45,243 bases of DNA. It comes from an uncultured Lachnospiraceae bacterium. GTDB lineage: Bacteria; Bacillota; Clostridia; Lachnospirales; Lachnospiraceae. The DNA lies in NCBI GenBank assembly GCA_947626795.1, contig CANQTH010000015.1:1-45243 (forward strand), in the 5' to 3' direction. The notes beneath the pieces were generated by a model. That model did no database searches. It saw only the letters and a list, made by a program, of their open reading frames with translations, and was not told where the DNA came from. Position numbers and translations under genes: made by a program. Shown piece after piece: positions 42 through 36,220 of the stretch. The first letter of the stretch is position 1. Every line of letters begins with the position of its first letter.

Positions 42-716
42 TTAAAAACATCGATTTTTAATAGCCGAAGTAATACCAATTACGCCATCAATTAATCTCG
101 TTAGGGGACAATAATATACAATCCATTCTTGTAAGTCAGGACAGTTCAATCCTAGTTGATATCCCCATGCTACTACTCTTTCACTGGAAACGCCTAAAAA
201 CAACTGGATGGAAAACAATATAAGCAACATCAAATAAACCATGTTGATATTTGCAACTCTGATTATATGTTTCAGTATCCAAGGAAATATTGTGTAAAAT
301 AGTAAAATTGCACACAGAAACCATGCTGCGCCATTTATAGTCCTAAATACAATGGGGATATATTCTTGCACTAAACCAATATTAAATATCAATCTTGCAA
401 TCATTTCTCTGGGGGAATATGCCGTCGGATTGCAAAACCAAAAATATTCAAACATCAAAAATGTCGTAATAATATAAAGAGGATACAACTTTTTTATTTT
501 GCAAATTCCGAAAATTATGTTTTTAGTCAATGAACACCCTATGCATCTGTCCGCATACTGATACATCATCAAGAATCCAGATAACACAAAAAACACTTCT
601 ACGCCCCACCATCCAAATGCCCGAAAGATCTTTATATCAGTATGAGATAAAAATACCCCAAGAAATGCCATGGCTCTAATAATTTGCAGTGAATAAATTT
701 TTCCTTTTCCATTCAT
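42..716 (-). CDS. Acyltransferase family 3 (OafA-like) membrane O-acyltransferase, 3' end truncated or frameshifted
   Basis: This is a polytopic membrane protein of the acyltransferase-3 family, which moves acetyl or other acyl groups onto extracytoplasmic sugars. The N-terminal part shows the family signature: an Arg-Ala start to TM1, a His-Thr-Asp at the end of TM1 (FLSHTDIK) and the GVEVFFVLSGFLM stretch that follows. Several hydrophobic helices come after it. I chose the ATG at 716; an upstream TTG at 746 adds ten residues and has only a distant GGAG. The frame stops at 42 after about 224 residues, whereas the family usually has 330-380. Another minus-strand frame is open from about position 60 to the window edge and reads KIDVFNSHNSEYSLNFYVE, which could be the lost continuation. 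It is the last visible gene of the carrier-protein block and may be the membrane step that uses the activated acyl group. Confidence 0.75.
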   Translation of the reverse strand: MNGKGKIYSLQIIRAMAFLGVFLSHTDIKIFRAFGWWGVEVFFVLSGFLMMYQYADRCIGCSLTKNIIFGICKIKKLYPLYIITTFLMFEYFWFCNPTAYSPREMIARLIFNIGLVQEYIPIVFRTINGAAWFLCAILLFYTIFPWILKHIIRVANINMVYLMLLILFSIQLFLGVSSERVVAWGYQLGLNCPDLQEWIVYYCPLTRLIDGVIGITSAIKNRCF

Positions 717-785
717 TTTATTGATACCAATCGTAAATATATTCAATGATTTTTAATGTTCTCCAAATAATTCATAAAACTTTTG

Positions 786-1034
786 TCAGGAATTGGTGCT
801 TTTTTCCATGCCCATCACTCTTTTTAATAAAGCAAACATATTCTCTACTGTTTTAAAATTTTTTTCTATAACATCCTCGGATTTGATTTCAATACTAAAG
901 ATTTTTTCCATCTCGCCTACGATCTCTATAACAGCAAAGGAATCTAGCAATCCCGCATCAAAAAGATTGCTTCCATCATATGAAACAATATCTTCATCAA
1001 TATCATCTAAAAGAGCAATTAACTTATCCCTCAT
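786..1034 (-). CDS. Acyl carrier protein (DltC/ACP-like)
   Basis: This is an 82-residue acidic four-helix carrier protein. The phosphopantetheine attachment serine lies in the GLLDSFAVIEI motif, at about Ser32, preceded by the usual Asp. The size and the single DS motif fit a stand-alone ACP, D-alanyl carrier protein or peptidyl carrier protein. A GGAGGG ribosome site lies inside the end of the upstream adenylation gene, and the two frames overlap by 11 bp. They are therefore probably translationally coupled, and this carrier is the likely acceptor of the acyl-adenylate made by that enzyme. Nothing in the sequence tells which acyl group it carries. DltC is the closest functional analogy, but no MBOAT DltB follows directly. 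Confidence 0.88.
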   Translation of the reverse strand: MRDKLIALLDDIDEDIVSYDGSNLFDAGLLDSFAVIEIVGEMEKIFSIEIKSEDVIEKNFKTVENMFALLKRVMGMEKSTNS

Positions 1035-2547
1035 TTGGCCCTCCTACTAAAATCATATTATTCAGTTTCTGCCTATCGATCTTTCCATTTAGATTGAGCG
1101 GCATCTCCTCCATCTTCACAAAATCATTCGGTATCATGTATTTAGGAATCAACGTTTTGATGCCTCTCTTTATATCCCGCATTTCAAGACAGCCCGAATA
1201 AAATAATACAATTCTTGACTTTTCCTTGTCATAGAGGCAGCAAGCTCTCTGGATACCATCCAGCGAGGATACAGCCGCTTCAATTTCACCCAGTTCAATC
1301 CGATAACCCATATGTTTAATCTGAAAATCTTTCCTTGAGACATAAATTATTTCATCTAATTCATTTACATAGACAAGATCGCCTGTCCTATATATGGTTT
1401 CAGGATAAGACTGATTCAAGGGGTTTTGGACAAAAGTCATTTTTGTTTTATCCGAAGAATTATAATAGCCATATGCAAGAGAAGCCCCTCTAGCGCACAG
1501 TTCTCCAATTTCTCCTTTTTTCACTTCCTTATTCTTATCATTTAATATTAGCAGCGACATATTATCGCATGCTTGGCCAATCGGCACGGATTCAGAATCT
1601 TTCAATTCCCGATTTAGGATATAATAACTGCATATATCTGTTACCTCGGTAGGACCAAACAGATTCGCATACATAGCATCCGGCAATGCCCTCCGCCACA
1701 TATTTAGTTGTTTGGTCGGCATTACTTCCCCCGCAAACAGCACAGAGTGCAGTTTCCCAAGATGCTTCGGATTTTCAAGTGCCTTTAAATTGGCGACTTG
1801 ACACAAAGCCGAAGGAACCCAATAAATTGTATTAATGCCATTAGCGTCAATATATTCCAGAAGCTCTGCAGGAAAAGAAAAAAGCTTTTTAGGAATAATA
1901 TTTATTGTCGCGGCGCTTTTGAGTGTCTGAAAAATATCAAGTACCGACATACTGAAATAGAACGGGGTCTGATTTCCGAACACCGTAGTCTCATTAAAGC
2001 CAAATGCTTCAGCACTCCATTCCATATAAGTAATTACATTACGATGTGATATTGAGACACCTTTCGGCACACCTGTAGATCCTGATGTAAACAAAACATA
2101 TACAAGATCTGTATCTATTATCTTGCGGTTTACATTTTTTATGGCTTCTAGGTTAAAAGATCCATCTAAATTATCGAGCAAAATCAGAGGGACTCCCAAT
2201 CCGCTAACAGTATCTTCATGCGCTGCATCAGTAATAATATATTCCGGCTCCAAAACCTCGCATATCTTTCGGACACGTTCGATAGGCATATCAACATCTA
2301 AAGGGGTATAAAAATTGCCGCTGTAAACAACCCCCATAAATGAATATAGACATTTCGTACTTTTATCTAAATAAATCGCTATAGGCTTTTTGAATACGTT
2401 CCTATTGATAATTTCGCTTGCTACTGCATAAGAATAGTCCCGGAACTTTTTAAAAGACACCTCCCCCTCCTGATCAACAAATCCTATTTTTTTCGGGCAT
2501 CTTTGAACCGTTTCATCCAAATAATCCGTAACAACCTTATTGTACAT
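1024..2547 (-). CDS. DltA-like AMP-forming adenylation enzyme (acyl/amino acid:carrier ligase) with altered substrate pocket
   Basis: This is a stand-alone ANL-superfamily adenylating enzyme of about 507 residues, the usual size of DltA. It would activate a carboxylic acid with ATP and load it on the neighbouring carrier. Visible motifs are A3 FTSGSTGVPKG (about 152-162), GPTEVT (A5), YRTGDLVY (A7), the hinge-region KDFQIKHMGYRIELGE (A8) and a C-terminal LNGKIDR with the catalytic Lys (A10). The pocket differs from D-alanine enzymes. The motif that reads FDLSV in DltA reads FSMSV here, so the amino-group-binding Asp is Ser (about residue 199), and the following LFCGE reads LFAGE. The ATG at 2547 is preferred because AAGGAAGGTG lies just upstream; an in-frame ATG at 2577 would overlap the upstream gene. 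The substrate is unknown. Confidence 0.85.
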   Translation of the reverse strand: MYNKVVTDYLDETVQRCPKKIGFVDQEGEVSFKKFRDYSYAVASEIINRNVFKKPIAIYLDKSTKCLYSFMGVVYSGNFYTPLDVDMPIERVRKICEVLEPEYIITDAAHEDTVSGLGVPLILLDNLDGSFNLEAIKNVNRKIIDTDLVYVLFTSGSTGVPKGVSISHRNVITYMEWSAEAFGFNETTVFGNQTPFYFSMSVLDIFQTLKSAATINIIPKKLFSFPAELLEYIDANGINTIYWVPSALCQVANLKALENPKHLGKLHSVLFAGEVMPTKQLNMWRRALPDAMYANLFGPTEVTDICSYYILNRELKDSESVPIGQACDNMSLLILNDKNKEVKKGEIGELCARGASLAYGYYNSSDKTKMTFVQNPLNQSYPETIYRTGDLVYVNELDEIIYVSRKDFQIKHMGYRIELGEIEAAVSSLDGIQRACCLYDKEKSRIVLFYSGCLEMRDIKRGIKTLIPKYMIPNDFVKMEEMPLNLNGKIDRQKLNNMILVGGPNEG

Positions 2548-2563
2548 ATCTTTACACCTTCCT

Positions 2564-4315
2564 TTACCATTCAACATCTGACATTACATCTTTTGCAGGA
2601 TTTCCCAGAACCATATGCCTGCTTTTTACATTCCTTGTAACTGTGGAATTAAGGCCACATATCGCACCAGCGCCTATCCTTAATCCTTTTGCAATCGTAA
2701 CACCGGAACACAACCAGACATGATCCTCGATAACCAACGGTTTTCCCTTTACACTTTTATTTATGCCAGTCGGATGGTAATTGCTGTCATATATCATGAC
2801 ATTTCTCCCAATGCCAATGTCGTCTCCCATCGTAATTTTATTGGAGCATACAATCACCGTCCCATAATTTGTGTCGGTTTTTCCCATCGTCAACTCCGCA
2901 TCCGGCAGGACATCAAGCGTATTCCCAGCCGCCAGTTGGACAATTCCATTAATCTCATATTTTCCATTTCTGTAAATATGCAAATATACCTCCTCATGAG
3001 AATGTTTATGCCTATTCGTATTTACATACAATGATGAATGAAGTACTAATTTGCCACCCTTTTCAATATTAATCCTGGTTCCTCTATAAGGGATCATATA
3101 ACATCGCTTATCCCTTTTGACACCAGAGCAAAAATAATTATAATGAACAAATTGAAGCGGCCTGCACTTCAGTATTATAGAAACAACCTTCTTTATTTTT
3201 CGTATTAGCGCTTCTTTTCTCCTGTTCCTCCCATATTTATTATGGATATAAGGGATAGACCGGGTTTCCAAGTCATGAAAAAACGCTTCTGCCCCTTCTT
3301 TCCTATGTAACTGATGAAGAAGGGCATAGTTTCCTTTTGATACCTCCCACAGGTTTCGTTCTTCAAACTGGATGCGGTCAGATATTCCCTCAAACAGCTT
3401 CTGCCCCCGCTCCGAATTGACCATGACTGCTGATACGCCATTTTTTAGTATCTCATTATCTATGTTCTTTATCGCCCAGAAATCACCTACTGTAATATCA
3501 CAAAGCCTCGGATTCTCTCTGTATTTACAGTCAAAACAAGATGGTCTGGTATTAAAATCGTCCCTGTGAAACATGATTTCATACGGATCATCATATTGGT
3601 TCACATAGTAAGATTTTCCATTCTGAAATTCAAATTTTGTGCCAAAATTTCTCCAGCCTTTGGTCTTATTTTTATACTGCACATTCGAAACCGGGGATCT
3701 ATATTCAGTTTCAAGATATTCTATCCTTTTTTGATGGTACTTCTGGGATGAATAGCCTCTGCAAATAAAGTCACAACAGATCAGGTTTTCACTCAGTCTG
3801 TCCCCTACATAATATCTTAATGCCGCATTTGTACAAGCTGTTCCGATATAAAGAACCGTTTTCCCTTCTGCTAAAACCCCTTTCACTTCTTCATATATGT
3901 TTCCCATTTCCGGTTGAAAGTACTTGGTCTGGGTAATGAGCTGGAGTTCATTTATTGAAGTTATCAGCTTATACTCGGCATTCCTATAGTGATCGCACCA
4001 TGCGACTCCCGCCACACAGCCTCCATTTTCAAGTACATATTTTGATATTTCATAACATATACCTCCAGAAGTACATTGCTCACGCTGCCCTGTATCCTTA
4101 GACCATGCCGCATAAACCGCAGGATACTTATTGGACGTGGATTCCCTGTTAAGTGCCGGGCATTTTTTCATACACAGATCACAGTCAATACATTTCTCCT
4201 TGCTTACAACCGGATAGCGAAAACCATTTCTCACTTCATAGGTTATGGCGCCCGTCGGGCAGATCTGACCGCATAAGGTACAGCCTGTACATTTGTCATC
4301 ATTGATTTTAAGCAT
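2564..4315 (-). CDS. Fusion of ferredoxin + F420-hydrogenase/dehydrogenase beta-type domain + hexapeptide-repeat acyltransferase
   Basis: This 583-residue protein joins two usually separate activities. Residues 9-19 and 42-52 carry two CxxCxxCxxxC clusters for [4Fe-4S] centres. Residues of about 60-380 match the FrhB/FdhB beta-subunit family, with CTSGGICYEISKYVL and a second Cys-rich patch (RPSCFDCKYRENPRLCDITVGDFW). From about residue 400 the chain becomes a left-handed beta-helix acyltransferase, with the hexapeptide ladder, a DSNYHP active-site His segment and the closing GNPAKDV. FrhB-like proteins are often found in exopolysaccharide loci beside pyruvyltransferase-family proteins, and one lies at 7818. 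Their reaction there is not settled. Here the redox and acyl-transfer steps may act on the same sugar or acyl intermediate. The start has an AGGAGAAAG site. Confidence 0.85.
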   Translation of the reverse strand: MLKINDDKCTGCTLCGQICPTGAITYEVRNGFRYPVVSKEKCIDCDLCMKKCPALNRESTSNKYPAVYAAWSKDTGQREQCTSGGICYEISKYVLENGGCVAGVAWCDHYRNAEYKLITSINELQLITQTKYFQPEMGNIYEEVKGVLAEGKTVLYIGTACTNAALRYYVGDRLSENLICCDFICRGYSSQKYHQKRIEYLETEYRSPVSNVQYKNKTKGWRNFGTKFEFQNGKSYYVNQYDDPYEIMFHRDDFNTRPSCFDCKYRENPRLCDITVGDFWAIKNIDNEILKNGVSAVMVNSERGQKLFEGISDRIQFEERNLWEVSKGNYALLHQLHRKEGAEAFFHDLETRSIPYIHNKYGRNRRKEALIRKIKKVVSIILKCRPLQFVHYNYFCSGVKRDKRCYMIPYRGTRINIEKGGKLVLHSSLYVNTNRHKHSHEEVYLHIYRNGKYEINGIVQLAAGNTLDVLPDAELTMGKTDTNYGTVIVCSNKITMGDDIGIGRNVMIYDSNYHPTGINKSVKGKPLVIEDHVWLCSGVTIAKGLRIGAGAICGLNSTVTRNVKSRHMVLGNPAKDVMSDVEW

Positions 4316-4335
4316 TTTCTTTCTCCTGACTGTAA

Positions 4336-5328
4336 TTACAGATTATATACAAATCCTGGGCAATCATTTGTTTTGTTATTGTTCTTGTCAAATGAATAGT
4401 TCGTATTAAGTTCTTCTAGCCTCTCCATTTCATCATCCATTAATGAAAAGTCAAATATGTCCAGATTTTCCTGCAAATGCTCCTCTGATATGGATGACAC
4501 AATCGGGATCACCGAATTCTGATAGTGCCAGCGATAAATGATTTGTGCCGCTGATTTATCGTATTTCTTTGTTAAGCCAGTCATTATTTCGGATTCAGTT
4601 ACTCTATTACTCATATGTGCAGTAGGAGTGTGTGACATTACGACTATCCCATTATCACTGCATAACTTTCTGAGTTCTCTTTTTGTATTAAGCGGATGCA
4701 ACTCAACCTGGCATATCATGGGCTTGATTTCACATATTTCCAGAAGGGATTCCATTTCATCCGCGTCAAAATTACAGACGCCTAGGGCTCTTACTTTTCC
4801 AGCTTTATATTCCTTCTCGATTTCTTTGTACATCGAGACCCAATCTCCGGAAGGAAAATGAAGCAGATAGGCATCTGCATAATCTGTATTCAAAAATTTT
4901 AACGATATCGACAAATTATCATGTACAGTTGCAGCATTTGGATAACGAATCAGATCAACATCTGATACTTTCGTAATGATAAAGAAATCTTCCCTGTTAT
5001 ATTTACCTACTGCTTCCCCAATAAACTTCTCAGAGTGTCCGTACAGTCTTCCTGAGTCAAACATTCTGTACCCACACTGAATGGCAGTATCCAACGTTTT
5101 CTGAATTGTCATATCATTTTTCAGAAAACGTACCATCTTTCTATGCTTTACAGACCGAAGCAGGGCAACCATAGTATCCTTGATATACATGGCTTTATTT
5201 CTGTAAAAACGTTTAACAACTCCTGTGCCAAAAGCAATACATGGCATACGGATCCCATTGCAAAGGATAACCTCTTCCATTTTCAACTGACATTCTGTTT
5301 GTTTTGAACACGTAGACAATTCTTTCAT
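4336..5328 (-). CDS. Aldo/keto reductase family oxidoreductase
   Basis: This is a 330-residue NADPH-type aldo/keto reductase. The complete catalytic tetrad is visible: Asp and Tyr in FDSGRLYGHSE, Lys in ITKVSD and His in YLLHFPSG. The GVCNF motif and the C-terminal cofactor segment IPIVSSISEEHL also fit. An insertion of about 30 residues follows the first strand (KRFYRNKAMYIKDTMV region), unlike the shortest family members. It sits 8 bp from the SGNH-like gene and 20 bp from the ferredoxin/F420 fusion, so it is co-transcribed with the carrier-protein block. A role in reducing a carbonyl on a sugar or on the acyl group is plausible, but the substrate cannot be read from the sequence. Confidence 0.85.
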   Translation of the reverse strand: MKELSTCSKQTECQLKMEEVILCNGIRMPCIAFGTGVVKRFYRNKAMYIKDTMVALLRSVKHRKMVRFLKNDMTIQKTLDTAIQCGYRMFDSGRLYGHSEKFIGEAVGKYNREDFFIITKVSDVDLIRYPNAATVHDNLSISLKFLNTDYADAYLLHFPSGDWVSMYKEIEKEYKAGKVRALGVCNFDADEMESLLEICEIKPMICQVELHPLNTKRELRKLCSDNGIVVMSHTPTAHMSNRVTESEIMTGLTKKYDKSAAQIIYRWHYQNSVIPIVSSISEEHLQENLDIFDFSLMDDEMERLEELNTNYSFDKNNNKTNDCPGFVYNL

Positions 5329-5335
5329 ACTATTA

Positions 5336-6199
5336 TCATTCCCCCCATAGCTCTTTCTGAAGTCTCCGGTTAAATATGTCCTTTCCCAATTCGTTTAGGC
5401 AGATAGGAGTACTGTAATACCTTTCATCTTCAAGTTCCTTATCATCCCAGAAATTGACTACCTTAATTCCTCTTTTCTTTATTAACTCAATATAATCCCA
5501 GAGACATTCATCGAGGATATTATACGGCATTATTTTCTTTAAATGTATATTGAATGGTGGCACTACGATAACAGGAAGCAGACCATTTCTGTCACAGAAC
5601 TCAATGTCCTTTAAGAAAATATCCCATGATCTGCTTAACGTTTTTCTCTGCTCATCCGTAAGTTTTACTTCATCATCCCAGCCAAATTCATGGAGCCAAT
5701 TAGCCATAGCCTGTCTTGATCTTGCTTCCAGTGATGCCTTCGTTGCATTTCTTTGCAGCTTTAGAATCCTTTTTATAAAGCTCTTTATTTCCTGCTTCAT
5801 CTGCCTGTTATCAAGCAGTCCAGGACAGTGCTTTATCATCCATGCCTTTCTGTCGGAATAATTCAATATCCTTTGAGGTTCCACATAGCCATAGTACTTA
5901 TAATTATGATAATCTGTTTCATATTTATCTACAAGGAAGGCAAATTCTGATATACTTATAAATACGAGGGCTCCTTTTTTCAAATGCTTACCATACTGTT
6001 CCAGAAGCTGATTATCATAATACATATCCTGAGGGCCAGAGGCAAAATTAAATCCACAACCATCCCAATATGAATAATCAAAATTATTTGCGTCACACGT
6101 ACTTCCTAGATTTGCAAAATCAAGGTTATCAGGGATTTCGTCATATCGTTTCCATTCTTGCATCCATGATACATAAAGAACTGAATTCTTTCCAAACAT
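5336..6199 (-). CDS. SGNH-like protein of unknown activity
   Basis: This is a 287-residue soluble protein without a signal peptide or membrane segment. The pattern FANLGSTCDANNFDY near the start, the buried strand GALVFISISEFAF, LLPVIVVPPF in the middle and the final LNELGKDIF segment recall SGNH/DltD-type folds common in Firmicute polysaccharide clusters. The late block that normally reads Asp-x-x-His-Leu-Asn reads TPICLNELG here, so the usual catalytic Asp and His are absent. It may be inactive, may use another mechanism, or may be only distantly related. An AGGGGA site precedes the ATG. Its place between the aldo/keto reductase and the flippase suggests a role in polymer modification. Confidence 0.6.
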   Translation of the reverse strand: MFGKNSVLYVSWMQEWKRYDEIPDNLDFANLGSTCDANNFDYSYWDGCGFNFASGPQDMYYDNQLLEQYGKHLKKGALVFISISEFAFLVDKYETDYHNYKYYGYVEPQRILNYSDRKAWMIKHCPGLLDNRQMKQEIKSFIKRILKLQRNATKASLEARSRQAMANWLHEFGWDDEVKLTDEQRKTLSRSWDIFLKDIEFCDRNGLLPVIVVPPFNIHLKKIMPYNILDECLWDYIELIKKRGIKVVNFWDDKELEDERYYSTPICLNELGKDIFNRRLQKELWGE

Positions 6200-7817: not shown

Positions 7818-8981
7818 TCAATCAAATATTAATGCGCTTAAAAATCTTTCTGATTTTTTCCGGAAGCGTTCTAAGTTCTGCTGGATCTTTTCGCCGTCCC
7901 ACGAGAAATCATCAAATCGGATCACTTTATCAAGATCCACATACTTGTTCGATTCACCCAACGTGTCAAGATAATCCATCAGCCGCATATTCAAGTTCAA
8001 TGCATCTTGCCTTTTCACGGCAATAAAATTTGTCGAAAATATGCTGGAAAACACCAATCCATGGAAACTGTCCGTCACCACATACTGTGCGTGATGAATG
8101 AGCCAGAGCCATTCCTGCGGAGAACAGTCCTCAACTAGGATATTTCCAAAGCAATCTGACTCATCATCCATATATCCGCTGATATACGGAATAGTAACAA
8201 GATAAAGATTGGCTTGTTTGCAAAGCTGTCCAATTTTTTGCCGTTGCTTTTCATCATTCCCAAGCAGATACGCAAAACAAAAAGAGCCATTTTTCTCATT
8301 TTCGGCATTTTGTTTAAATAATGCTGGTTTTTGTTCTATATTTTCCCAATCTTCTTTCCTTAAGAGCAAGGTTGGATCGCAAGTATGGACAACATTTTGT
8401 ATGCCAATCTGATTTAATAATCTCACAGATTGGCGTTCTCGCACAGATATGGCTTTAAAATCAGCCAAGCATTCCTTTAGCAGTTTAACATTTTCGGGAG
8501 GTATGTGATTTTTCCCGAAAGAAGCAGCATAAGATATTTTGACCGTGTTAGGATTGGACACAAAGTCAAGGAATTTCGTTCGCTGTATGAACCCTCTCCA
8601 TTGAAACCATACAACATCTGACCCAACCACGATAATATCAGAATCAGAATTTTTAAGCTGCCCCCAACTCTTGACCGTATTGTTTATATTGATATATTCC
8701 TGGGCAAACAAGAAAAAATTTTGGAAACGAGATTCCAACTTTTTCCCATGCTTGATGGGGAAAAGGGAATGCTTGCACTTTGCAAGACACCTTCTGGTTG
8801 TGAGCCATATCCACCAAAACAAGGAAGCATACTTTCGTTTTTCGCACTTGTCCAGTAGAAGTGTTTCTACTGTCGCTTTAGGGTACTTTCTCGCAAGATA
8901 TTGATTGATGGCATAGGCCTGCAGGTGGTTTCCGTAATTTACGGTATTTAGGCTAAATTCATTTATGATTCTGATTTTCAA
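7818..8981 (-). CDS. Polysaccharide pyruvyltransferase family protein (WcaK/CsaB-like)
   Basis: This protein of about 387 residues belongs to the PS_pyruv_trans family, which has a GT-B-like fold and moves pyruvate from phosphoenolpyruvate to sugars to form ketals. Diagnostic stretches are NYGNHLQAYAINQYL at the N-terminus, DIIVVGSDVVWF with the conserved Gly-Ser-Asp, ISVRERQSVRLL, CDPTLL, and VVTDSFHGLVFS. The start is probably the TTG at 8981, eight bases after GGGAGGG; the first TTG at 8987 is too close to that site. This is the first intact gene after a 300-bp gap that seems to hold gene debris. Its partnership with the F420-hydrogenase-beta fusion is a recurrent arrangement in exopolysaccharide loci. 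Confidence 0.88.
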   Translation of the reverse strand: MKIRIINEFSLNTVNYGNHLQAYAINQYLARKYPKATVETLLLDKCEKRKYASLFWWIWLTTRRCLAKCKHSLFPIKHGKKLESRFQNFFLFAQEYININNTVKSWGQLKNSDSDIIVVGSDVVWFQWRGFIQRTKFLDFVSNPNTVKISYAASFGKNHIPPENVKLLKECLADFKAISVRERQSVRLLNQIGIQNVVHTCDPTLLLRKEDWENIEQKPALFKQNAENEKNGSFCFAYLLGNDEKQRQKIGQLCKQANLYLVTIPYISGYMDDESDCFGNILVEDCSPQEWLWLIHHAQYVVTDSFHGLVFSSIFSTNFIAVKRQDALNLNMRLMDYLDTLGESNKYVDLDKVIRFDDFSWDGEKIQQNLERFRKKSERFLSALIFD

Positions 8982-8987
8982 TATCAA

Positions 8988-9283
8988 AACCCTCCCAACA
9001 GCAAATCATTATTATCATTCGTTAAAATTCACGGAGAGGAATTGGGTGTTCTCTACACCATTGTGTAAAATATGGTTTGCTAGCAAAACAATCGAAAGAT
9101 TTATGCTTTTCGAGGGGAAATTTATCTTTCATTAGAATCTGGATAGGTCACGCATAGATATTTTCTATAAAAAATCAATGTTCCCAAGAAGCTTTAAATA
9201 TTGCCGATGTTTTATACGTGAGAAAATCGTTCTGATAGTTAAAGCATCATATATGTCCCCTTGTCTGATTTCTATCATAGGCA
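8988..9283. other. Intergenic gap with two short minus-strand reading frames, possible gene debris
   Basis: Nearly 300 bases separate the epimerase gene from the pyruvyltransferase gene. On the minus strand an ATG at 9284 overlaps the epimerase stop as TAATG, a classic coupling junction. It opens a 39-codon frame (MPMIEIRQGDIYDALTI...) that ends at 9165. A second frame, 9132-9022, encodes MKDKFPLEKHKSFDC... and ends with PIPLREF. Both have plausible amino-acid use but match nothing I recognise. The simplest reading is a decayed gene. A perfect 12-base palindrome, TTTGCTAGCAAA, lies at about 9077-9088. I see no convincing promoter. Confidence 0.35.
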
Positions 9284-10414
9284 TTATTTCCGCCAAATCA
9301 TCTTATTAATAATTCCTGTATAACTCTGGATAATCTTGATGACTTTCATGCTTACATTATCATCTGCATAAGAAGGCACATCAGCTGCGCAATCTCCATT
9401 GGCATACATTGCAACGGTCAGCTCGACAGCTTGTAGAACTTGTTCAGTGCTAATACTACCTATTGTAAATACCCCCTTATCCATTGCTTCTGGGCGTTCT
9501 GTACTCGTCCTGATGGATACGGCAGGAAATCCAAAATATGCCCCTTCTTCTGGAATAGTGCCACTATCGGATACTACACAAAATGCATTCTGCTGAAGTT
9601 TATTGTAATCCAAAAATCCCAATGGTTTATGTTTTATAACTCTTTTGTCAAATTTAAAATTTCTTGTCTCAATATACTTCTTGCTTCGTGGATGGCAGGA
9701 ATAGAGTATTGGCATATCATATGTTTCCGCCATTGCATTAACCGCATTCATGAGTGACAAAAAATTCAATTCATTATCAATATTTTCTTCTCGATGTGCA
9801 GATAATAGGATGTAGTTTCCGGTATCTAACTCAAGTTCATCCAAAATTGTACTTTTATCTATTTTTTCTCTATAATTATTTAATACTTCTGTCATTGGTG
9901 ATCCCACAACATACGTATATTCAGATTTTACTCCCGAATCTAAAATATATCTTTTGGCATGCTCTGAATAGCACAAATTAACATCACTAGTTACATCTAT
10001 AATTCGCCTAATCACTTCTTCTGGAAGATTTTCATCTTTACAACGATTACCTGCCTCCATATGAAATATTGGGATTTTTAAGCGTTTTGCGGATATTACA
10101 CAAAGGCATGAATTTGTATCGCCAAGCACAATCAACGCATCCGGTTTCGTCTTCTCCATCAACTCATATGATTTCGAAATCACATTACCCATAGTCTGCC
10201 CGATGTTGTCCCCCGCCACGCCCAGGTAATAGTCCGGTTTACGCAAGTTAAGATCGTCAAAAAACACTCTGTTAAGTTCATAATCATAATTTTGCCCTGT
10301 ATGAACCAGAATTTGTTCAAAATACCTATCTGCTTTCTTTATTATTTCCGACATCTTTATAATTTCGGGACGCGTACCAACTATCGTCATCAAACGTAAC
10401 TTTTTTCTTTTCAT
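9284..10414 (-). CDS. UDP-N-acetylhexosamine 2-epimerase, non-hydrolysing (FnlC/CapG/WbvD type)
   Basis: This 376-residue enzyme is of the WecB fold. It opens with MTIVGTRPEIIKMSEII, and continues with HTGQNYD, VLGDTNSCL, HMEAGNRC and the active-site SAHREENID. SDSGTIPEEGAYFGFPAVSIR and ERPEA complete the UDP-binding site. In a set with the CapE-like and RmlD-like genes just upstream it would do the last step, inverting C2 of a UDP-N-acetyl-6-deoxy-L-hexose. The product would be UDP-L-FucNAc or UDP-L-QuiNAc (see the reductase entry). GGAGAG precedes the ATG. It is separated from the reductase gene by 44 bp and belongs to the same transcription unit. Confidence 0.9.
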   Translation of the reverse strand: MKRKKLRLMTIVGTRPEIIKMSEIIKKADRYFEQILVHTGQNYDYELNRVFFDDLNLRKPDYYLGVAGDNIGQTMGNVISKSYELMEKTKPDALIVLGDTNSCLCVISAKRLKIPIFHMEAGNRCKDENLPEEVIRRIIDVTSDVNLCYSEHAKRYILDSGVKSEYTYVVGSPMTEVLNNYREKIDKSTILDELELDTGNYILLSAHREENIDNELNFLSLMNAVNAMAETYDMPILYSCHPRSKKYIETRNFKFDKRVIKHKPLGFLDYNKLQQNAFCVVSDSGTIPEEGAYFGFPAVSIRTSTERPEAMDKGVFTIGSISTEQVLQAVELTVAMYANGDCAADVPSYADDNVSMKVIKIIQSYTGIINKMIWRK

Positions 10415-11313: not shown

Positions 11314-12364
11314 TTTTTTCCCCTTTAGTTCCAAGCTTCATTTGTTCTTGCACATAATCAGTTGTCAAAAGTTTGTCCACAGTACCTTCAACATCCAATC
11401 TTGTTGTATTATGACTGGTATATGCTTCGTCAGATTGTGTTTGTACATACCCTTTAATGAAGTACTTGTCATAGTTAAGATTTCGATTATCAGCAGACAC
11501 CCTAAAATACTGTCCCATATCTTCGCATCTCAATCGTTCTTCAGTTGTTAATAGGGTCTCGTACAGTTTTTCTCCATGACGAGTTCCTATGATACAAGTT
11601 CCAGTATCACCAAACAATTTTTGTACTGCTTGGGCAAGATTTCCGATCGTACTAGCATCTGCTTTCTGTACAAAAAGATCACCTGGCTTTGCATGTTCAA
11701 ATGCAAACTGCACTAAATCAACTGCTTCGTCAAGATTCATAAGAAATCTTGTCATTTCAGGATTTGTTATTGTGATCGGATTTCCTGCTTTAATTTGATT
11801 GATAAAAAGCGGAATGACAGATCCTCTTGAACACATTACATTCCCATATCTTGTGCAGCAGATCACTGTATCTCCTCTCTCTGCAGCCACCCTTGCATTT
11901 GCTGTTATGATATGCTCCATCATTGCCTTAGAAATACCCATGGCATTAATCGGATAAGCTGCTTTATCAGTAGACAAGCATACCACTCTTTTCACACCGG
12001 CTTCTATCGCGGCATGTAGTATATTATCCGTACCTTCGACATTAGTTTTAACTGCTTGCATTGGAAAAAATTCACACGAGGGAACCTGCTTAAGCGCTGC
12101 TGCATGGAAGATATAGTCTACTCCAGGCATAGCATCTTTAATAGATTGTGGATCTCTAACATCCCCGATATAAAATTTGACTTTTTGGGCATACTCAGGA
12201 TACTTGGCTTGAAGCCTATGCCTCATATCATCTTGTTTTTTTTCATCCCGACTAAAAATGCGTATTTCTCCAATATCAAAAGTCAAAAAATGCTTAAGGA
12301 CAGTATTGCCAAATGATCCTGTTCCGCCGGTTATCATTAGGGTTTTATCTTTGAATATAGACAT
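11288..12364 (-). CDS. UDP-GlcNAc 4,6-dehydratase/5-epimerase (CapE/FnlA/WbjB-like)
   Basis: This 358-residue SDR starts the pathway from UDP-GlcNAc by 4,6-dehydration and C5 (and possibly C3) epimerisation. It shows MITGGTGSFGNTVLKHF at the NAD site, FSRDEKKQDDMR, YIGDVRD and AALKQVPSCEFFP. The active site reads LSTDKAAYPINAMGISKAMME, in which Met replaces the usual SDR tyrosine of Tyr-x3-Lys, as in the FlaA1/PglF/CapE group. It has an AGGAAGTG ribosome site and is the first gene of the three-step epimerase set. It shares the Ser-Thr-Asp-Lys signature with the PglF-like protein at 27714 but lacks the membrane domain. Confidence 0.9.
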   Translation of the reverse strand: MSIFKDKTLMITGGTGSFGNTVLKHFLTFDIGEIRIFSRDEKKQDDMRHRLQAKYPEYAQKVKFYIGDVRDPQSIKDAMPGVDYIFHAAALKQVPSCEFFPMQAVKTNVEGTDNILHAAIEAGVKRVVCLSTDKAAYPINAMGISKAMMEHIITANARVAAERGDTVICCTRYGNVMCSRGSVIPLFINQIKAGNPITITNPEMTRFLMNLDEAVDLVQFAFEHAKPGDLFVQKADASTIGNLAQAVQKLFGDTGTCIIGTRHGEKLYETLLTTEERLRCEDMGQYFRVSADNRNLNYDKYFIKGYVQTQSDEAYTSHNTTRLDVEGTVDKLLTTDYVQEQMKLGTKGEKNEIFDSWM

Positions 12365-12387
12365 TGTTTCACTTCCTTAATCAATAG

Positions 12388-13599
12388 TTAGGTATTGCTT
12401 TTTGCCAAAATCCCAGGTATTAAAAGAGTGCTTAATATTATATGTGGATGATATAAAACAGGATTTATTAAAAACATTATCCCAAAAGTTCCCGCCATGA
12501 AAATAATAAATCTCCGATTATATGGTTCATCTATTTTTTTCGTTCGAGAAACAAAAGCTAGAACTAAAATTATAGCACTGGTGACTCCAAGTATTCCCAT
12601 TGAACCAATAAGATCAAAAAATTCACTATGGAATCCCAAAAGATTTTCAATTTCTTCACGTCTAGTAAAAAACAAGCCAAAAGGGTGCAAAAGAAATGAC
12701 CGGATTCCTCTCATATACAATTCAAATCTCGCTCCCGCATCTCCTGACGTATTTCCCCAAATCAGTAAATCCATCAGATTTTTTATCCTTAATTGTATCA
12801 TGGTCAAATTGCTCTTGACTGCTAATTCGTAAAAAAATGTTAAAATTGCGCTTCTTTCTATCCAAGCAATTAAAGCGGTCAAAAAAAGGAATATACTTCT
12901 TAAAACAAACTTCCTATTCGATCCATTCATCAACACTAAAGTGAATACAATCCCTGATAATATTACTGCAAAAACCAGTTGTGACATTAAAACGCATATC
13001 CCGTCGGATATAATAATTATAAGCAAAAAAATGTTCTTTTGCTTTTTGTATGTATATATCAATGACCCTTCCATAAAGCCCATACCAAATAGCAGTCCCC
13101 ATCCTGCCATATTATATCTTCGAAACATGAACTGCATCGGAGAATTGTCATCCGATGATGCCTGGCCCAAAACCCTTACCGCCATTGGAAATTTAAACAA
13201 TCCACAAATTGTTGTTAAGGCCGTCACAAAGGTCGCAATAAAGAATAACCAAACTATTTTATCTGGCAGGTTCAGTTTCCCATCCAAAATCATCCATGTA
13301 CATACCAAAAATTCAAGACTTACCAACATTGGAAATACATACGAAGAAAAACTTAACATAACACTCCACGATACAAAATAATATAATAATCCCATTCCAA
13401 CGGTCAGCATATATATAACAAAATATTGCATTCTTGAAATAAGCAATGCTACCACAAAACTCATCAAGCCAACGATCAATAACGGTTTGCGAATAATTCC
13501 CGGCATGGTGATGGTGATTGGGAAAAAATATAATATAAGAAACAGAAATAAAGAAAAATATATTAAATTCTCTGTTGAAATACGGATTCTGAGATTCAT
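12388..13599 (-). CDS. Wzy-like O-antigen/polysaccharide polymerase
   Basis: This hydrophobic protein of about 403 residues has some ten or more membrane spans and a larger extracytoplasmic loop in the second half (LLIWGNTSGDAGARFELYMRG). That loop is followed by LLHPFGLFFTRREEIENLLGFHSEFFDLIGSMG. Loops of this kind, with Arg and His-Ser-x-Phe, are typical of Wzy/WaaL-family polymerases and ligases. These enzymes are very divergent, so the call rests on topology, this loop and the locus. I start it at the ATG at 13599; the earlier TTG at 13611 adds four residues. It would polymerise the lipid-linked units exported by the flippase at 6233. Confidence 0.75.
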   Translation of the reverse strand: MNLRIRISTENLIYFSLFLFLILYFFPITITMPGIIRKPLLIVGLMSFVVALLISRMQYFVIYMLTVGMGLLYYFVSWSVMLSFSSYVFPMLVSLEFLVCTWMILDGKLNLPDKIVWLFFIATFVTALTTICGLFKFPMAVRVLGQASSDDNSPMQFMFRRYNMAGWGLLFGMGFMEGSLIYTYKKQKNIFLLIIIISDGICVLMSQLVFAVILSGIVFTLVLMNGSNRKFVLRSIFLFLTALIAWIERSAILTFFYELAVKSNLTMIQLRIKNLMDLLIWGNTSGDAGARFELYMRGIRSFLLHPFGLFFTRREEIENLLGFHSEFFDLIGSMGILGVTSAIILVLAFVSRTKKIDEPYNRRFIIFMAGTFGIMFLINPVLYHPHIILSTLLIPGILAKSNT

Positions 13600-29869: not shown

Positions 29870-30997
29870 TTATTTTTCTTCCGCTTCTTTTTTCTGCGCG
29901 GCCCAGCCTTCCTTATAAAATTTCACGAATTTTTCGTAAGCCTCGTCCCAGCTCTCGTAGCCTTCCTGCCCGCGCTTGTCCGCAAGCTGGTACGTCTCGC
30001 TCAAATATTTCGCAAAGTACCGCGTGAACTTCACGCCGCCCCTGCTGTTCATATGGTGCGCATTGTATAAGTCCTGGGAAAAATCCATCCCGAACGCCGC
30101 ATAATACTCATCCTTATTAAAATTGATGACATTCGCCCCATGCTCCTGCAAGTACTCCGCTGCGGCGTTAAATTCCGTCTGCTCGCCCTTGCTCAGCTTG
30201 GACGGAGACACGATAAAGAGGATCTCAAGGCCCGTATCCTTCCCGTACGCCATGATCTCGTCCAAAAGCCTGGTCTGCATACCGTTCAGCTCTTTCGTAT
30301 TCCCGACCACTTCGGTCGGATCCTGCGCTTCCACCGTAAACGCCATGTTCTCAACGTTATACACGCCCTTCATCGTATTGTACGGCGTGATGAAATCGTC
30401 CCGCGTAAGCCCTTCCGACCAGCGGGAATGGTATTTCAGGAACGGAAAGTACAGCGACGCCTCGTCCAGGCTGTCCAGCATCTTGTCCGCCTCTTCCTCC
30501 CCTTCGATCGCGCGCATCTCCTCATCCTGATAATAATCCTTATAGTAATCGATGGCGTGCGCTATGGTATCCCAGCGGTTCTTGGAATATTTCATGTTGT
30601 CCGTCACGCGCCGGAACGTGCTGTCCTTCGGGCGCACAGTGGACGACCGTATGCCGCGGACGTCCACGACCGCCAGCTTGATGTCCTGCGTCTTGCGCAC
30701 CTCTTCCAAAATACCCGTCGCAAGCACCAGGGGCTGCACGTCCGTATTCAGGGCATACCCCGTTATGCCGTATTTATCCCATGCCTCCGGGGCGATCCAT
30801 TCCCGGTCGACGCTGCTCGTCCCAAGCAATACGAAGTCGATCGTATCCTCCGGCTCCGCGTAAAAAGAATGGTAGCGCTTCGTGCAGGCGAGCGCATTCC
30901 CTTCCGCCGGAAGCCCGAACACGCTTACGACCGCCCCCGCCGAGATCCCCAGAGCCACGATGAATAATAGAAACCTCAATCCCTGTTTTATCGTCAT
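29870..30997 (-). CDS. SGNH-type (DltD/AlgX-like) membrane-anchored protein, partner of MBOAT
   Basis: This 375-residue protein has one N-terminal membrane anchor (LRFLLFIVALGISAGAVVSV) and an extracytoplasmic SGNH-like domain. VLLGTSSVDREW carries the nucleophile Ser block. ILFIVSPS is the central strand, and LYNAHHMNSRGGVKFTRYF supplies the late Asp-x-x-His-type block. It follows the MBOAT gene by 12 bp, the same pairing as DltB-DltD or AlgI-AlgX/AlgJ, in which the MBOAT passes an acyl group through the membrane and the SGNH protein completes transfer to the polymer. The C-terminus is a charged Lys/Glu tail. It has a strong AGGAGGAAGG site. Confidence 0.85.
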   Translation of the reverse strand: MTIKQGLRFLLFIVALGISAGAVVSVFGLPAEGNALACTKRYHSFYAEPEDTIDFVLLGTSSVDREWIAPEAWDKYGITGYALNTDVQPLVLATGILEEVRKTQDIKLAVVDVRGIRSSTVRPKDSTFRRVTDNMKYSKNRWDTIAHAIDYYKDYYQDEEMRAIEGEEEADKMLDSLDEASLYFPFLKYHSRWSEGLTRDDFITPYNTMKGVYNVENMAFTVEAQDPTEVVGNTKELNGMQTRLLDEIMAYGKDTGLEILFIVSPSKLSKGEQTEFNAAAEYLQEHGANVINFNKDEYYAAFGMDFSQDLYNAHHMNSRGGVKFTRYFAKYLSETYQLADKRGQEGYESWDEAYEKFVKFYKEGWAAQKKEAEEK

Positions 30998-31009
30998 GAT
31001 ACCTTCCTC

Positions 31010-32608
31010 CTAAAACTGCTGGTAAATAAACTCCCCGGCCGAGTACCCTGCCCCGTAGTTCCCATAAACCATCAACACGAGGACAGCCCCAATGTAGATC
31101 GCCCAGCGGAAGAACACGTTCTGCCTCGCGATGGACTCGCGGATGCGGACGCCCCGCTCCTGCAGGATGCCCACGACCAAAAGCACAAGCACGAAGATGA
31201 AGATCACATAAAAATCTTTATACGACAGCCCAAGTTCTAAAAACGACCCGTCAAAGAACACCCACGGGTTCAGCCCCGTAAACGTCCGCTTGATCATGTC
31301 GAGCGCCACCATGCAGGAAGCCGCCCGCGGGAAAAACCGCCCGAAGCTGCTCAAGAGGAACGTGCGGAACATCTGAATGAACTTCCATCCAAAGCTCTCC
31401 GAATCAATCCCGCATTTTTTCAGCGAGCTGTCATAGACCGGCTCAAGCAGGATGCTCGACACGATGATGATCCCATTCCACAGGCCGTACCCGATATATT
31501 TCCAGCTCGACCCGTGCCAGATCCCCACCAGCAAAAACACGATGAACATCGACAGGAAGGAGGGAAGCTTCTTCCCTATGTAGCTGCCGAAGACCTTCCG
31601 GGTGCGTTTCCCCAGGTTCGAAAACGCCTTCGATAAAGAAAGCGGATAGAACACGTAATCGCGCATCCAGTTCCCCAGGGAAATATGCCACCTGCGCCAG
31701 AACTCGCTGATGGACCTCGAAAAATACGGCCGCTCGAAGTTCAGCACCATGTCAATGCCAAGAACCTGCGAAACGCCGCGCGCAATGTCCATCCCGCTGG
31801 AGAAATCCGCGTAAACCTGGAGGCCGTACGCCGCCGCCGCGACGAACAGCACAAATCCCTCATAGGAAGACGGGTCGTTAAAGACGCAGTCCACCAGGAC
31901 CGCGATGCGGTCCGCAAGGATCAGCTTCTTCATCAGCCCCCACAAGACCAACTGGACGCCCTGCGTCACCCTGTCATAGTCAAATTTGTGCGGCTCGTAC
32001 AACTGCCGCGCCAACTGGTCGTACCGCGCGATCGGCCCCTGGACGATCTGCGGGAAAAACGTCATGAACAGGGAAAATTTGAAGAAATTCCGGTCGGGCT
32101 GGTATTTCCCGCGGTATATGTCCACAATGTAGGCGATGGACTGCAGCGTATAGAAAGAAATGCCCAGCGGCAGCAGCAGCTCCAGGGCTGGAAGCCGCCC
32201 GGATATCCCCGTGCGGGCGACCACGGCGTTGATGTTCTCCGCGATGAAATTATAATATTTCAAAAATACCAAAAGCCCCAGGTTGATCAGGACGGCGCAG
32301 CCAACGACGCGCCGCTTCGCCTTCACCGCCTTGCTTTTCAAGGCCTTCTTCTCTTCCCGGGACAGCTCTTCCTTCCGCTCCTTCAGCGTCTGGGACAGCT
32401 TGCTGTTCTCTCGCCCCAGAGCCAGCCCCGTCACAAACGTCACGAACGTCGTCGTCACCAGGAACACCAGCGCCTTCGCGCTCGAACATACGTAAAACGC
32501 GTAGCTGCCCAGCAGCAGGACCACCCACTTGCATTTCCCGGGCACAAGGAAATAGAGGATGGCCAGCACCGCCACAAACATCATAAATGAGACTGAAATA
32601 AAATCCAT
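31010..32608 (-). CDS. MBOAT family O-acyltransferase (AlgI/DltB-like)
   Basis: This 532-residue polytopic protein is of the membrane-bound O-acyltransferase family. It begins with MDFISVSFMMFVAVLAILYFLV and contains the hallmark SRSISEFWRRWHISLGNWMRDYVFYPL, with the invariant active-site histidine in a second block (VGIWHGSSWKYIGYGLWNG). About ten membrane helices are visible, and the charged insert RKEELSREEKKALKSKAVK lies between early helices. It is most likely a polysaccharide O-acetylation channel. It is co-transcribed with the SGNH partner 12 bp downstream and with the glycerophosphotransferase-like gene 6 bp upstream. Confidence 0.92.
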   Translation of the reverse strand: MDFISVSFMMFVAVLAILYFLVPGKCKWVVLLLGSYAFYVCSSAKALVFLVTTTFVTFVTGLALGRENSKLSQTLKERKEELSREEKKALKSKAVKAKRRVVGCAVLINLGLLVFLKYYNFIAENINAVVARTGISGRLPALELLLPLGISFYTLQSIAYIVDIYRGKYQPDRNFFKFSLFMTFFPQIVQGPIARYDQLARQLYEPHKFDYDRVTQGVQLVLWGLMKKLILADRIAVLVDCVFNDPSSYEGFVLFVAAAAYGLQVYADFSSGMDIARGVSQVLGIDMVLNFERPYFSRSISEFWRRWHISLGNWMRDYVFYPLSLSKAFSNLGKRTRKVFGSYIGKKLPSFLSMFIVFLLVGIWHGSSWKYIGYGLWNGIIIVSSILLEPVYDSSLKKCGIDSESFGWKFIQMFRTFLLSSFGRFFPRAASCMVALDMIKRTFTGLNPWVFFDGSFLELGLSYKDFYVIFIFVLVLLVVGILQERGVRIRESIARQNVFFRWAIYIGAVLVLMVYGNYGAGYSAGEFIYQQF

Positions 32609-35276: not shown

Positions 35277-36188
35277 CTACTTGCCCAATTCCAAGAAATA
35301 ATCTAATTTTTCCGCCGCCGTCCGAAGGCTGTTCAGCCGCTCGTCCATTTTTCCAAAATCCACGTTTCCTTCCGGCCTGCCCCGGTATATATGCCGATCG
35401 TCCTTATACACCTGGTTTTTTTCCGTATTTTCTTCTTTCCACGCATGGACGCAAGCTCCATCCCAGAAAATATTCTCTTTTAGCAGCTTGGCAGGATTTC
35501 CGCCCCACGACGTATTGGCCGGGATTTCTTTCCCTGCCGCCACGCCCATCGCGCCCAAAATGCTGCCCGCCTGGATCCTGGTTCCTTTTAAGATCATGGC
35601 GGACTGCCCGACCCAAACATGGTCGCCGATAAAAACGCTCTTTGTCGGGTTTATGCGTTCCATCGTCTCTGCGCTGTAAATCAGGTGCGGATCCGCGTTC
35701 CGTATCCATATGCCAAAGGAAAACAGGCACTCCGAGCCAATATAACAATGCCTTTGCTCGGACAAGACAATATTCAGCGTTCCGTTCATATAATTATCTT
35801 TCCCCATATGGCACGCCGAATTATGATTAATGGAAATATTGAGCCTGTATTCGCGCTTGCTGCCGCTCAAATATATGATAGAATCGCTGCCGTTAAAAGC
35901 CAGTGTGCTGTTTACCAGCTTCACTCCTTCCCCGCAGTACAAAATATTGTTCTTCCCTTTAAAATTTATGTTGGAATTGACAAGCGCAGGCCTCTCCCCT
36001 GCCAAACGGTTCCCGTCCGCCAGGTCTTCAAAATCCCCCTCTTTGTCCGTAATGCGGGATATTTTCTTTTTCTCTGCAGGAACCTCCTGCTCCTTTTCCC
36101 GCCCAGCCGCAGCCTCATTTCCCGGCACGCCGTCACTCTTTTGATCTTTTGACATCATCTTCTGTATCTTGCCTTTCAAATTTCTCAT
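35277..36188 (-). CDS. Hexapeptide-repeat acyltransferase (LbH, xenobiotic/maa-like)
   Basis: This protein of about 303 residues has a charged N-terminal stretch (about 1-60), then a left-handed beta-helix: NINFKGKNNILYCGEGVKLVN, IGSECLFSFGIWIRNADPH and VFIGDHVWVGQSAMILKGT, ending with WGGNPAKLL. The HVWVG and NADPH segments are as in serine and sugar acetyltransferases of capsule loci. A GGAGG at the right distance favours the ATG at 36188. An earlier ATG pair at 36224 overlaps the stop of the upstream gene. Its helix resembles the acyltransferase domain of the fusion at 2564. It probably acetylates a nucleotide sugar or lipid-linked sugar in the cytoplasm. Confidence 0.82.
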   Translation of the reverse strand: MRNLKGKIQKMMSKDQKSDGVPGNEAAAGREKEQEVPAEKKKISRITDKEGDFEDLADGNRLAGERPALVNSNINFKGKNNILYCGEGVKLVNSTLAFNGSDSIIYLSGSKREYRLNISINHNSACHMGKDNYMNGTLNIVLSEQRHCYIGSECLFSFGIWIRNADPHLIYSAETMERINPTKSVFIGDHVWVGQSAMILKGTRIQAGSILGAMGVAAGKEIPANTSWGGNPAKLLKENIFWDGACVHAWKEENTEKNQVYKDDRHIYRGRPEGNVDFGKMDERLNSLRTAAEKLDYFLELGK

Positions 36189-36220
36189 AAACGCAATCCT
36201 CCGCTCATACCATTTCCGCA

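Follow-up and report, generated by a model that had tools for sequence, protein, structure and literature searches.

Which acid does a DltA-like enzyme activate when the aspartate that holds the amino group of D-alanine is missing, and which transferase takes over the acyl group? D-alanylation by the Dlt system is the textbook case of the acylation of envelope polymers by a ligase and a carrier protein. Here we analyse a stand-alone adenylation protein (A-protein) and an acyl carrier protein (ACP) that are encoded close to one end of a 45,243-nt stretch of DNA from an uncultured Lachnospiraceae bacterium (CANQTH010000015.1). This stretch, called the window below, is the entire contig C15 of a 2.9 Mb genome in 144 contigs, and the cassette that contains the two genes is part of a polysaccharide locus. 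Our tentative choice, which we put close to but short of an even chance, is that the pair generates a non-amino acyl-ACP and that the acyl group is transferred in the cytoplasm by a hexapeptide acyltransferase domain. The class of acid, the acid itself, the transferase, and the acceptor are all elements that we infer.

The adenylation enzyme and its carrier

The gene for the A-protein (517 aa; 1024-2577, minus strand; PF00501, 198.1 bits) overlaps the gene for the ACP (82 aa; 786-1034, minus strand; PF00550, 30.4 bits) by 11 bases. The coupling of the two genes, proposed earlier from the letters alone (the sequence-only reading), is thus borne out, and the open reading frames (ORFs) of the cassette were found at the places and on the minus strand given there. 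The sequence GLLDSF marks the presumed site of phosphopantetheine attachment in the ACP, which scores below both DltC cut-offs (NF003464, 34.1 versus 68; TIGR01688, 22.8 versus 52.35). The A-protein stays below both DltA cut-offs (TIGR01734, 307.9 versus 559.85 bits; NF003417, 320.7 versus 476), and it narrowly exceeds that of the generic amino acid adenylation model of NCBIfam (TIGR01733, 319.7 versus 317.4 bits). Because the core motifs TSGSTG, GPTE, YRTGD, and NGKIDR (with the lysine at position 499) are present, the A-protein looks catalytically active.

A true DltA (L129; 701 bits to TIGR01734) served as the reference; its alignment to B. cereus 3fcc gave the numbers Asp197 and Cys269 for the two sites of interest, by our count on the alignment. 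When the A-protein is aligned to this DltA, FSMSV lies opposite FDLSV and LFAGE opposite LFCGE, so that Ser209 stands at the Asp197 position and Ala282 at the Cys269 position, and the motifs had been read correctly from the sequence. The roles that had been assumed for the two residues were also right: in the excerpted text of PMC4176424, Asp-197 of DltA stabilises the amino group of D-Ala, and Cys-269 sets the choice of enantiomer, which is relaxed by C269A. In total, eight of the ten code positions differ between the window enzyme and the true DltA as read by us from the alignment, two of the eight being placed by counting from GPTE across an alignment gap.

The serine pocket recurs among relatives

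The survey covered 157 sources (the window, L049-L128, and L165-L240) with 163 genes for A-proteins, 161 of which are distinct. L049-L128 were picked by similarity to the window enzyme; L165-L240 are mostly the best matches from a search of genomes of the family, or neighbours of genes for window-like membrane-bound O-acyltransferases (MBOATs). Since loci were chosen by these two kinds of similarity, the frequencies of the types are biased. At E ≤ 1e-60, 104 of the 250 family genomes searched, counting that of the window, encode a similar enzyme. Named genomes, when scanned, gave at least 588 relatives, 80 of which were kept. Matches to the DltA model are rare, i.e. 3 of 149 at E ≤ 1e-100 in a separate sample of the phylum, two of them above the cut-off.

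The pocket types among the distinct genes are FDNS (52), FSMS (32, including the window), FDA types (30), FDVS (27), and V/I types without Asp (8). Six of the remaining genes are of other types, and six odd ones (HAGGL, HSNAL, INRSL, YTMGL, YTYGL, and YIAAI) were dropped, leaving 155 of the 161 for the counts of neighbours. All 32 FSMS genes (S-type) share the pocket code SM[LST]Y[LM]FALDIK. The pocket is therefore a conserved type, and not a lone mutation that arose by chance. The titles of the records with this code name Lachnospiraceae, other Clostridia, Clostridium, Erysipelotrichaceae, and one member of the Spirochaetales.

In the tree of A-proteins, the window enzyme clusters with L049, L050, L051, and L182 (support 97). 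Two separate FSMS groups appeared in a first tree, in which one in three FDNSI sequences was used, but a single origin was not rejected by the approximately unbiased test (p-AU 0.172; FDNSI, FDVSV, and DA types were thinned further and three long rows were taken out), and the division into two groups was not retained.

Which acid is activated

The substrate of the window enzyme likely lacks an amino group, because genes for amino-group enzymes, defined as pyridoxal phosphate (PLP) enzymes or formyltransferases, are found near 54 of the 114 Asp-keeping A genes and near none of the 41 Asp-less ones. The two kinds are distributed by type, with PLP enzymes near 19 of the 27 FDVS genes and formyltransferases near 28 of the 52 FDNS genes; neither kind occurs near any of the 32 S-type genes. 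The opposite distribution is seen for a Na+/solute symporter, which is encoded near 7 of the 41 Asp-less genes versus 0 of the 114 Asp-keeping genes. Because the tree of A-proteins offers just two independent pairs, the contrast in amino-group enzymes is suggestive, not significant, and Fisher values for the contrast in neighbours ignore kinship.

Several individual loci illustrate these associations. Six of the eight V/I-type genes have the symporter nearby, and V/I-type systems may import their acid in this way; symporter loci are L122 (11670-13292), L105 (11686-13347), L052, L088, L196, and L206. In L085, which is of the FDNS type, a formyltransferase gene (11580-12467) lies between the genes for the A-protein and the ACP, and FDNS loci possibly place N-formyl-aminoacyl groups on polymers. 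L177, of the FDVS type, contains a gene for a decarboxylase/racemase-like PLP enzyme (8429-9643).

The literature on adenylation enzymes agrees with the likely loss of the amino group. In the excerpted text of PMC11253843, the residue Asp235 is replaced in enzymes for hydroxy, keto, and aryl acids, while enzymes for beta-amino acids use the Asp, and the keto-acid enzyme StsA has a Met for a conserved Pro. We mapped this Met site to the GPTE motif, the Pro of which is kept in all 32 S-type enzymes, making a keto acid less likely as the substrate. The sequence-only reading had listed a hydroxy, a keto, or a simple carboxylic acid; the conserved pocket, the excerpt of PMC11253843, and the neighbour counts indirectly support its non-amino part, and the retained Pro counts against its keto acid.

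Transfer of the acyl group

Most relatives with the serine pocket belong to an operon of a different kind from the window's cassette. The usual S-type operon, A-ACP-MBOAT-SGNH, accounts for 24 of the 32 genes; the MBOAT and SGNH-like genes are on the same strand in 23 of these, and in L182, the 24th, both lie together with the ACP gene on the opposite strand. The MBOATs of at least 450 aa from loci of all types end in FxYxxF in 103 of 122 cases, and in xYxxF in four more. According to the excerpted text of PMC12148441, FxYxxF is an acyl-shuttle motif, with a Tyr shuttle mechanism described for DltX and PatA, and the MBOAT/SGNH pathways other than Dlt do without a carrier protein. For the latter reason, the combination of ligase, ACP, self-shuttling MBOAT, and SGNH protein is a hybrid of Dlt and Pat. 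In L255 (4128-11700), one FSMS A gene is followed by two successive ACP-MBOAT-SGNH-like sets, which are separated by a small ORF on the opposite strand.

The eight other S-type genes are those of the window, L049, L050, L051, L053, L127, L188, and L124. L049, L050, and L051 resemble the window in encoding an FrhB-LbH fusion protein and an aldo/keto reductase together with the A-protein and the ACP. L053 and L127 have S-type pairs without an MBOAT, which adjoin genes for AAC(3)-like acyltransferases (PF02522 was checked for L127 only), showing that soluble partners occur. AAC(3)-like genes are not peculiar to the S-type, as they are also present at 10 of the 52 FDNS genes. The L124 gene is at a contig end. 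In L188 (2372-13932), the FSMS A and ACP genes are part of a locus that by eye resembles one for the synthesis of a nonulosonic (legionaminic-type) acid, and they adjoin the gene for a 342-aa protein without a Pfam match.

The fusion protein of the window (583 aa; 2564-4315, minus strand) combines 4Fe-4S motifs, an FrhB/FdhB-like domain, and a hexapeptide acyltransferase domain. PF04432, PF04422, and Fer4 families are matched, and WcaF/WbbJ-type models match at the C-terminal end, the best stretches being 488-578 and 448-576. Its gene overlaps the A gene by 14 bases and is preceded by that of the aldo/keto reductase (330 aa; 4336-5328, minus strand; PF00248, 162.1 bits). The reductase and the fusion are each encoded beside 4 of the 32 S-type genes, and the FrhB profile was matched at just four places in the 157 sources, i.e. 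in the window, L049, L050, and L051. The metagenome-assembled genome of L049 contains a second S-type A gene in its own A-ACP-MBOAT-SGNH operon. The A/ACP pair in the exopolysaccharide (EPS) locus of this genome therefore probably serves a transferase other than that of the MBOAT operon.

In the mechanism that we tentatively favour, the A-protein would adenylate a small carboxylic acid without an alpha-amino group and load it onto the ACP, and the pair would supply acyl-ACP for a surface polysaccharide. Most likely the acid would be short and either alpha-hydroxylated or unsubstituted, lactate being the single best guess. In the sub-branch of EPS loci, the FrhB-fused hexapeptide domain would discharge the ACP in the cytoplasm and transfer the acyl group to a sugar precursor, and the aldo/keto reductase would act on the acid or on the sugar.

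Several observations weigh against this mechanism, some against the transfer step and others against the class of acid. The hexapeptide domain resembles models of acetyltransferases, and the sequence does not reveal which donor it uses. In the window, L049, and L050, the contig stops soon after the ACP gene, with 0.5-1 kb of sequence beyond the A gene, so that an MBOAT gene may have followed in all three; in L051, no MBOAT match was found in the approximately 10 kb downstream of the A gene. The genomes of L049, L050, and L051 contain MBOAT genes elsewhere, and the fusion is rare, being found in 1 of the 250 family genomes at E ≤ 1e-80, which is the window's own. The dropped gene L174 (YIAAI, without Asp) has a PLP enzyme nearby, which turns the Asp-less count into 1 of 42, and the contrast in amino-group enzymes is clustered on the tree, where a sign test on the two independent pairs gives p 0.5-1. 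McyG has a Val in place of the Asp and yet activates L-Phe (PMC11253843, in excerpt), and HcaB, for which a keto-acid substrate is proposed (PMC10949194, in excerpt), retains the Asp; owing to these two enzymes, the Asp code is not strict in either direction.

The strongest alternative concerns the transferase. The A-protein and the ACP could feed an MBOAT and a DltD-like protein that are encoded at 29870-32608 in the same locus, which we regard as somewhat unlikely. The acyl group would pass from the ACP to the C-terminal Tyr of the MBOAT, on to the SGNH-like protein, and then to the polymer outside the cell. The MBOAT (31010-32608, minus strand; PF03062, 54.3 bits) scores 155.7 bits with the DltB model TIGR04091 (cut-off 375) and has kept the acyl-shuttle motif as its C-terminus FIYQQF. 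Its DltD/SGNH-like partner (29870-30997, minus strand) matches no Pfam family at E ≤ 5 and has kept the four residues (Ser, Asp, His, and Asn) that do not vary across a 13-row alignment. Such a route would agree with the gene pairs that adjoin the A and ACP genes in the 24 usual S-type operons. In the assembled window no MBOAT/SGNH pair adjoins the A and ACP genes; the contig ends 1 kb downstream of them, and the distance of approximately 27 kb to the pair speaks against the route.

Comparisons with other genomes give arguments on both sides. In G176, of the same genus, the orthologous MBOAT (73%) comes after an A-ACP pair of the FDVSV type (L166, 4864-9464). In the window, a TagF-like gene is located 6 bases from the MBOAT gene and the A-ACP pair of G176 is absent between them, so that the window MBOAT lacks a dedicated ligase. 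The genome of the window has two MBOATs and a single close member of the A family, the next match having 178 bits, which favours sharing. Similarly, two of the three MBOATs in the L050 genome, those whose surroundings were examined, have no adjoining A or ACP gene, and one MBOAT of the L051 genome is the sister of that of the S-type locus L182 (support 96); this L051-genome MBOAT has an ACP gene of its own and an A gene of the FDVSN type next to it. On the other side, the MBOAT tree, for which DN and DA types were capped at 12, places the window MBOAT within those that accompany Asp-keeping enzymes of the FDVSV type, and not with those linked to the S-type. Raw phmmer scores had hinted at orthology with the S-type-linked MBOATs, which was overturned by this tree. 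In addition, orphan relatives of the window MBOAT (on contig C49, and on C14 of G176) have no A or ACP gene alongside, which makes the use of acetyl-CoA as likely. The window MBOAT may draw on the acyl-ACP of the FSMS enzyme or on acetyl-CoA.

A second alternative concerns the acid, i.e. the enzyme could still activate an alpha- or beta-amino acid, and the exchange of Asp for Ser would then have left the substrate class unchanged. McyG is a precedent for the activation of an amino acid without the Asp, and the Asp-keeping FDNS branch is among the near kin of the window pocket in the tree. We consider this improbable, given the eight differences from DltA in the ten-position code, the retention of the Asp in beta-amino acid enzymes (PMC11253843, in excerpt), and the lack of PLP enzymes and formyltransferases near the 32 S-type genes. 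The sequence-only reading had placed an acyltransferase-3 (AT3) in the role of DltB. Its frame follows directly after the ACP gene (42-746, minus strand), and the enzyme would accept the acyl group of the ACP and carry it through the membrane. This is very improbable because the gene is missing its C-terminal portion and breaks off in a repeat, because an AT3 gene is found beside 1 of the 32 S-type genes, the window's own (by a weak profile of low sensitivity), and because MBOAT and SGNH-like genes take that place in 24 of the 32.

Other genes of the window

On the minus strand, the cassette follows genes for a polysaccharide pyruvyltransferase and a flippase-type polysaccharide protein, and it continues with those for a 287-aa protein, the aldo/keto reductase, the fusion protein, the A-protein, the ACP, and the AT3 piece. 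The latter has 234 aa and covers positions 1-181 of the 326 of PF01757, so that its domain is incomplete. It runs into a repeat (1-75) with a perfect 12-bp hairpin at 37-66 (DNA fold z = -4.0), a copy of which, 97% identical over 75 bases, opens contig C52. A fold-back assembly artefact as the cause of the premature end was rejected, because by eye the flanks beyond the 12-bp arms do not mirror each other and because the same stretch is present on C52. Two further acyltransferase-like genes of the window were recognised by eye, one for a hexapeptide protein (35277-36224) and one for an AT3-like protein (42512-43648). Our own reading of the sequences is the source of the labels TagF, NeuB/NeuC, legionaminate-like, and phosphonopyruvate decarboxylase.

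The conserved 287-aa protein (5336-6199, minus strand) had been labelled SGNH-like. Its conserved GSTCDA and TPICLN blocks recall SGNH motifs by eye, with a Cys where SGNH proteins have a His. The label found no confirmation: there was no Pfam match at E ≤ 5, a PDB profile search with an alignment that omitted the row bearing the aldo/keto reductase gave no significant match (one insignificant, E 1.5), and the hhalign comparison with DltD-like proteins gave a weak match (probability 2.4%, E 0.02, 62 columns). An SGNH enzyme is thus not supported by any of the three. In L050, the 287-aa protein and the aldo/keto reductase form one ORF, which suggests that the two act jointly. Upstream of the cassette of L050 (3-2199), Pfam domains indicate an iron-containing alcohol dehydrogenase and a thiamine diphosphate enzyme that resembles a phosphonopyruvate decarboxylase, and it is possible that this locus makes a phosphonate polymer.

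Comparison with known systems

A distant relative of DltA is common in the family of the window, whereas matches to the DltA model are rare in the separate sample of the phylum. A broader reading, taken as one joint claim, is possible rather than probable. Clostridia, Erysipelotrichaceae, and some Spirochaetes would have a large, apparently undescribed set of systems with an A-protein, an ACP, a Tyr-shuttle MBOAT, and an SGNH protein. Their pockets would have diversified into acid types with matched helpers, i.e. a formyltransferase (FDNS), a PLP decarboxylase-like enzyme (FDVS), a symporter (V/I), or none (FSMS). The FSMS type would put a non-amino acid such as lactate on exopolysaccharide, and the sub-branch of the window would have swapped the membrane transferase for the FrhB/hexapeptide one. 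If the types mean different acids, surface polymers would carry predictable, uncatalogued substituents, and a short code could reveal the acid once one member per type has been assayed. Among the open-licence papers listed by our searches, no title or abstract opening describes a ligase-ACP-MBOAT-SGNH system besides Dlt.

Among the described systems, a ligase and a PLP decarboxylase associated with exosortase A were compared. The window ligase scores 172.6 bits with the ligase model TIGR03098 (cut-off 592.35), and the PLP enzyme of the FDVSV locus L177 scores 194.2 with the decarboxylase model TIGR03099 (cut-off 478.45); unlike in that system, no PLP enzyme is encoded near the 32 S-type genes. 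The hydroxy- and keto-acid domains of the non-ribosomal peptide synthetases EnSynA1 and StsA share the replacement of Asp235 with the window enzyme (PMC11253843, in excerpt). They have Gly/Ala or Ile at this site, whereas the window enzyme has Ser, is a stand-alone protein in a polysaccharide locus, and keeps the Pro of GPTE. As in PatAB and in DltB/X/D, an MBOAT is paired with an SGNH-like protein in most S-type relatives (24 of 32), and in contrast to PatAB-type pairs, the S-type systems add a dedicated ligase and an ACP.

Dlt itself offers the closest parallel. Like DltA and DltC, the window pair consists of a stand-alone adenylation enzyme and a separate carrier near envelope-polymer genes, with 28% identity of the enzyme to the true DltA. 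Unlike DltA, the enzyme has neither the amino-binding Asp nor the selectivity Cys and is far below the DltA cut-off, and, unlike in Dlt, no MBOAT or DltD-like gene adjoins the pair. We read the cassette as a variation on the Dlt scheme of polymer acylation.

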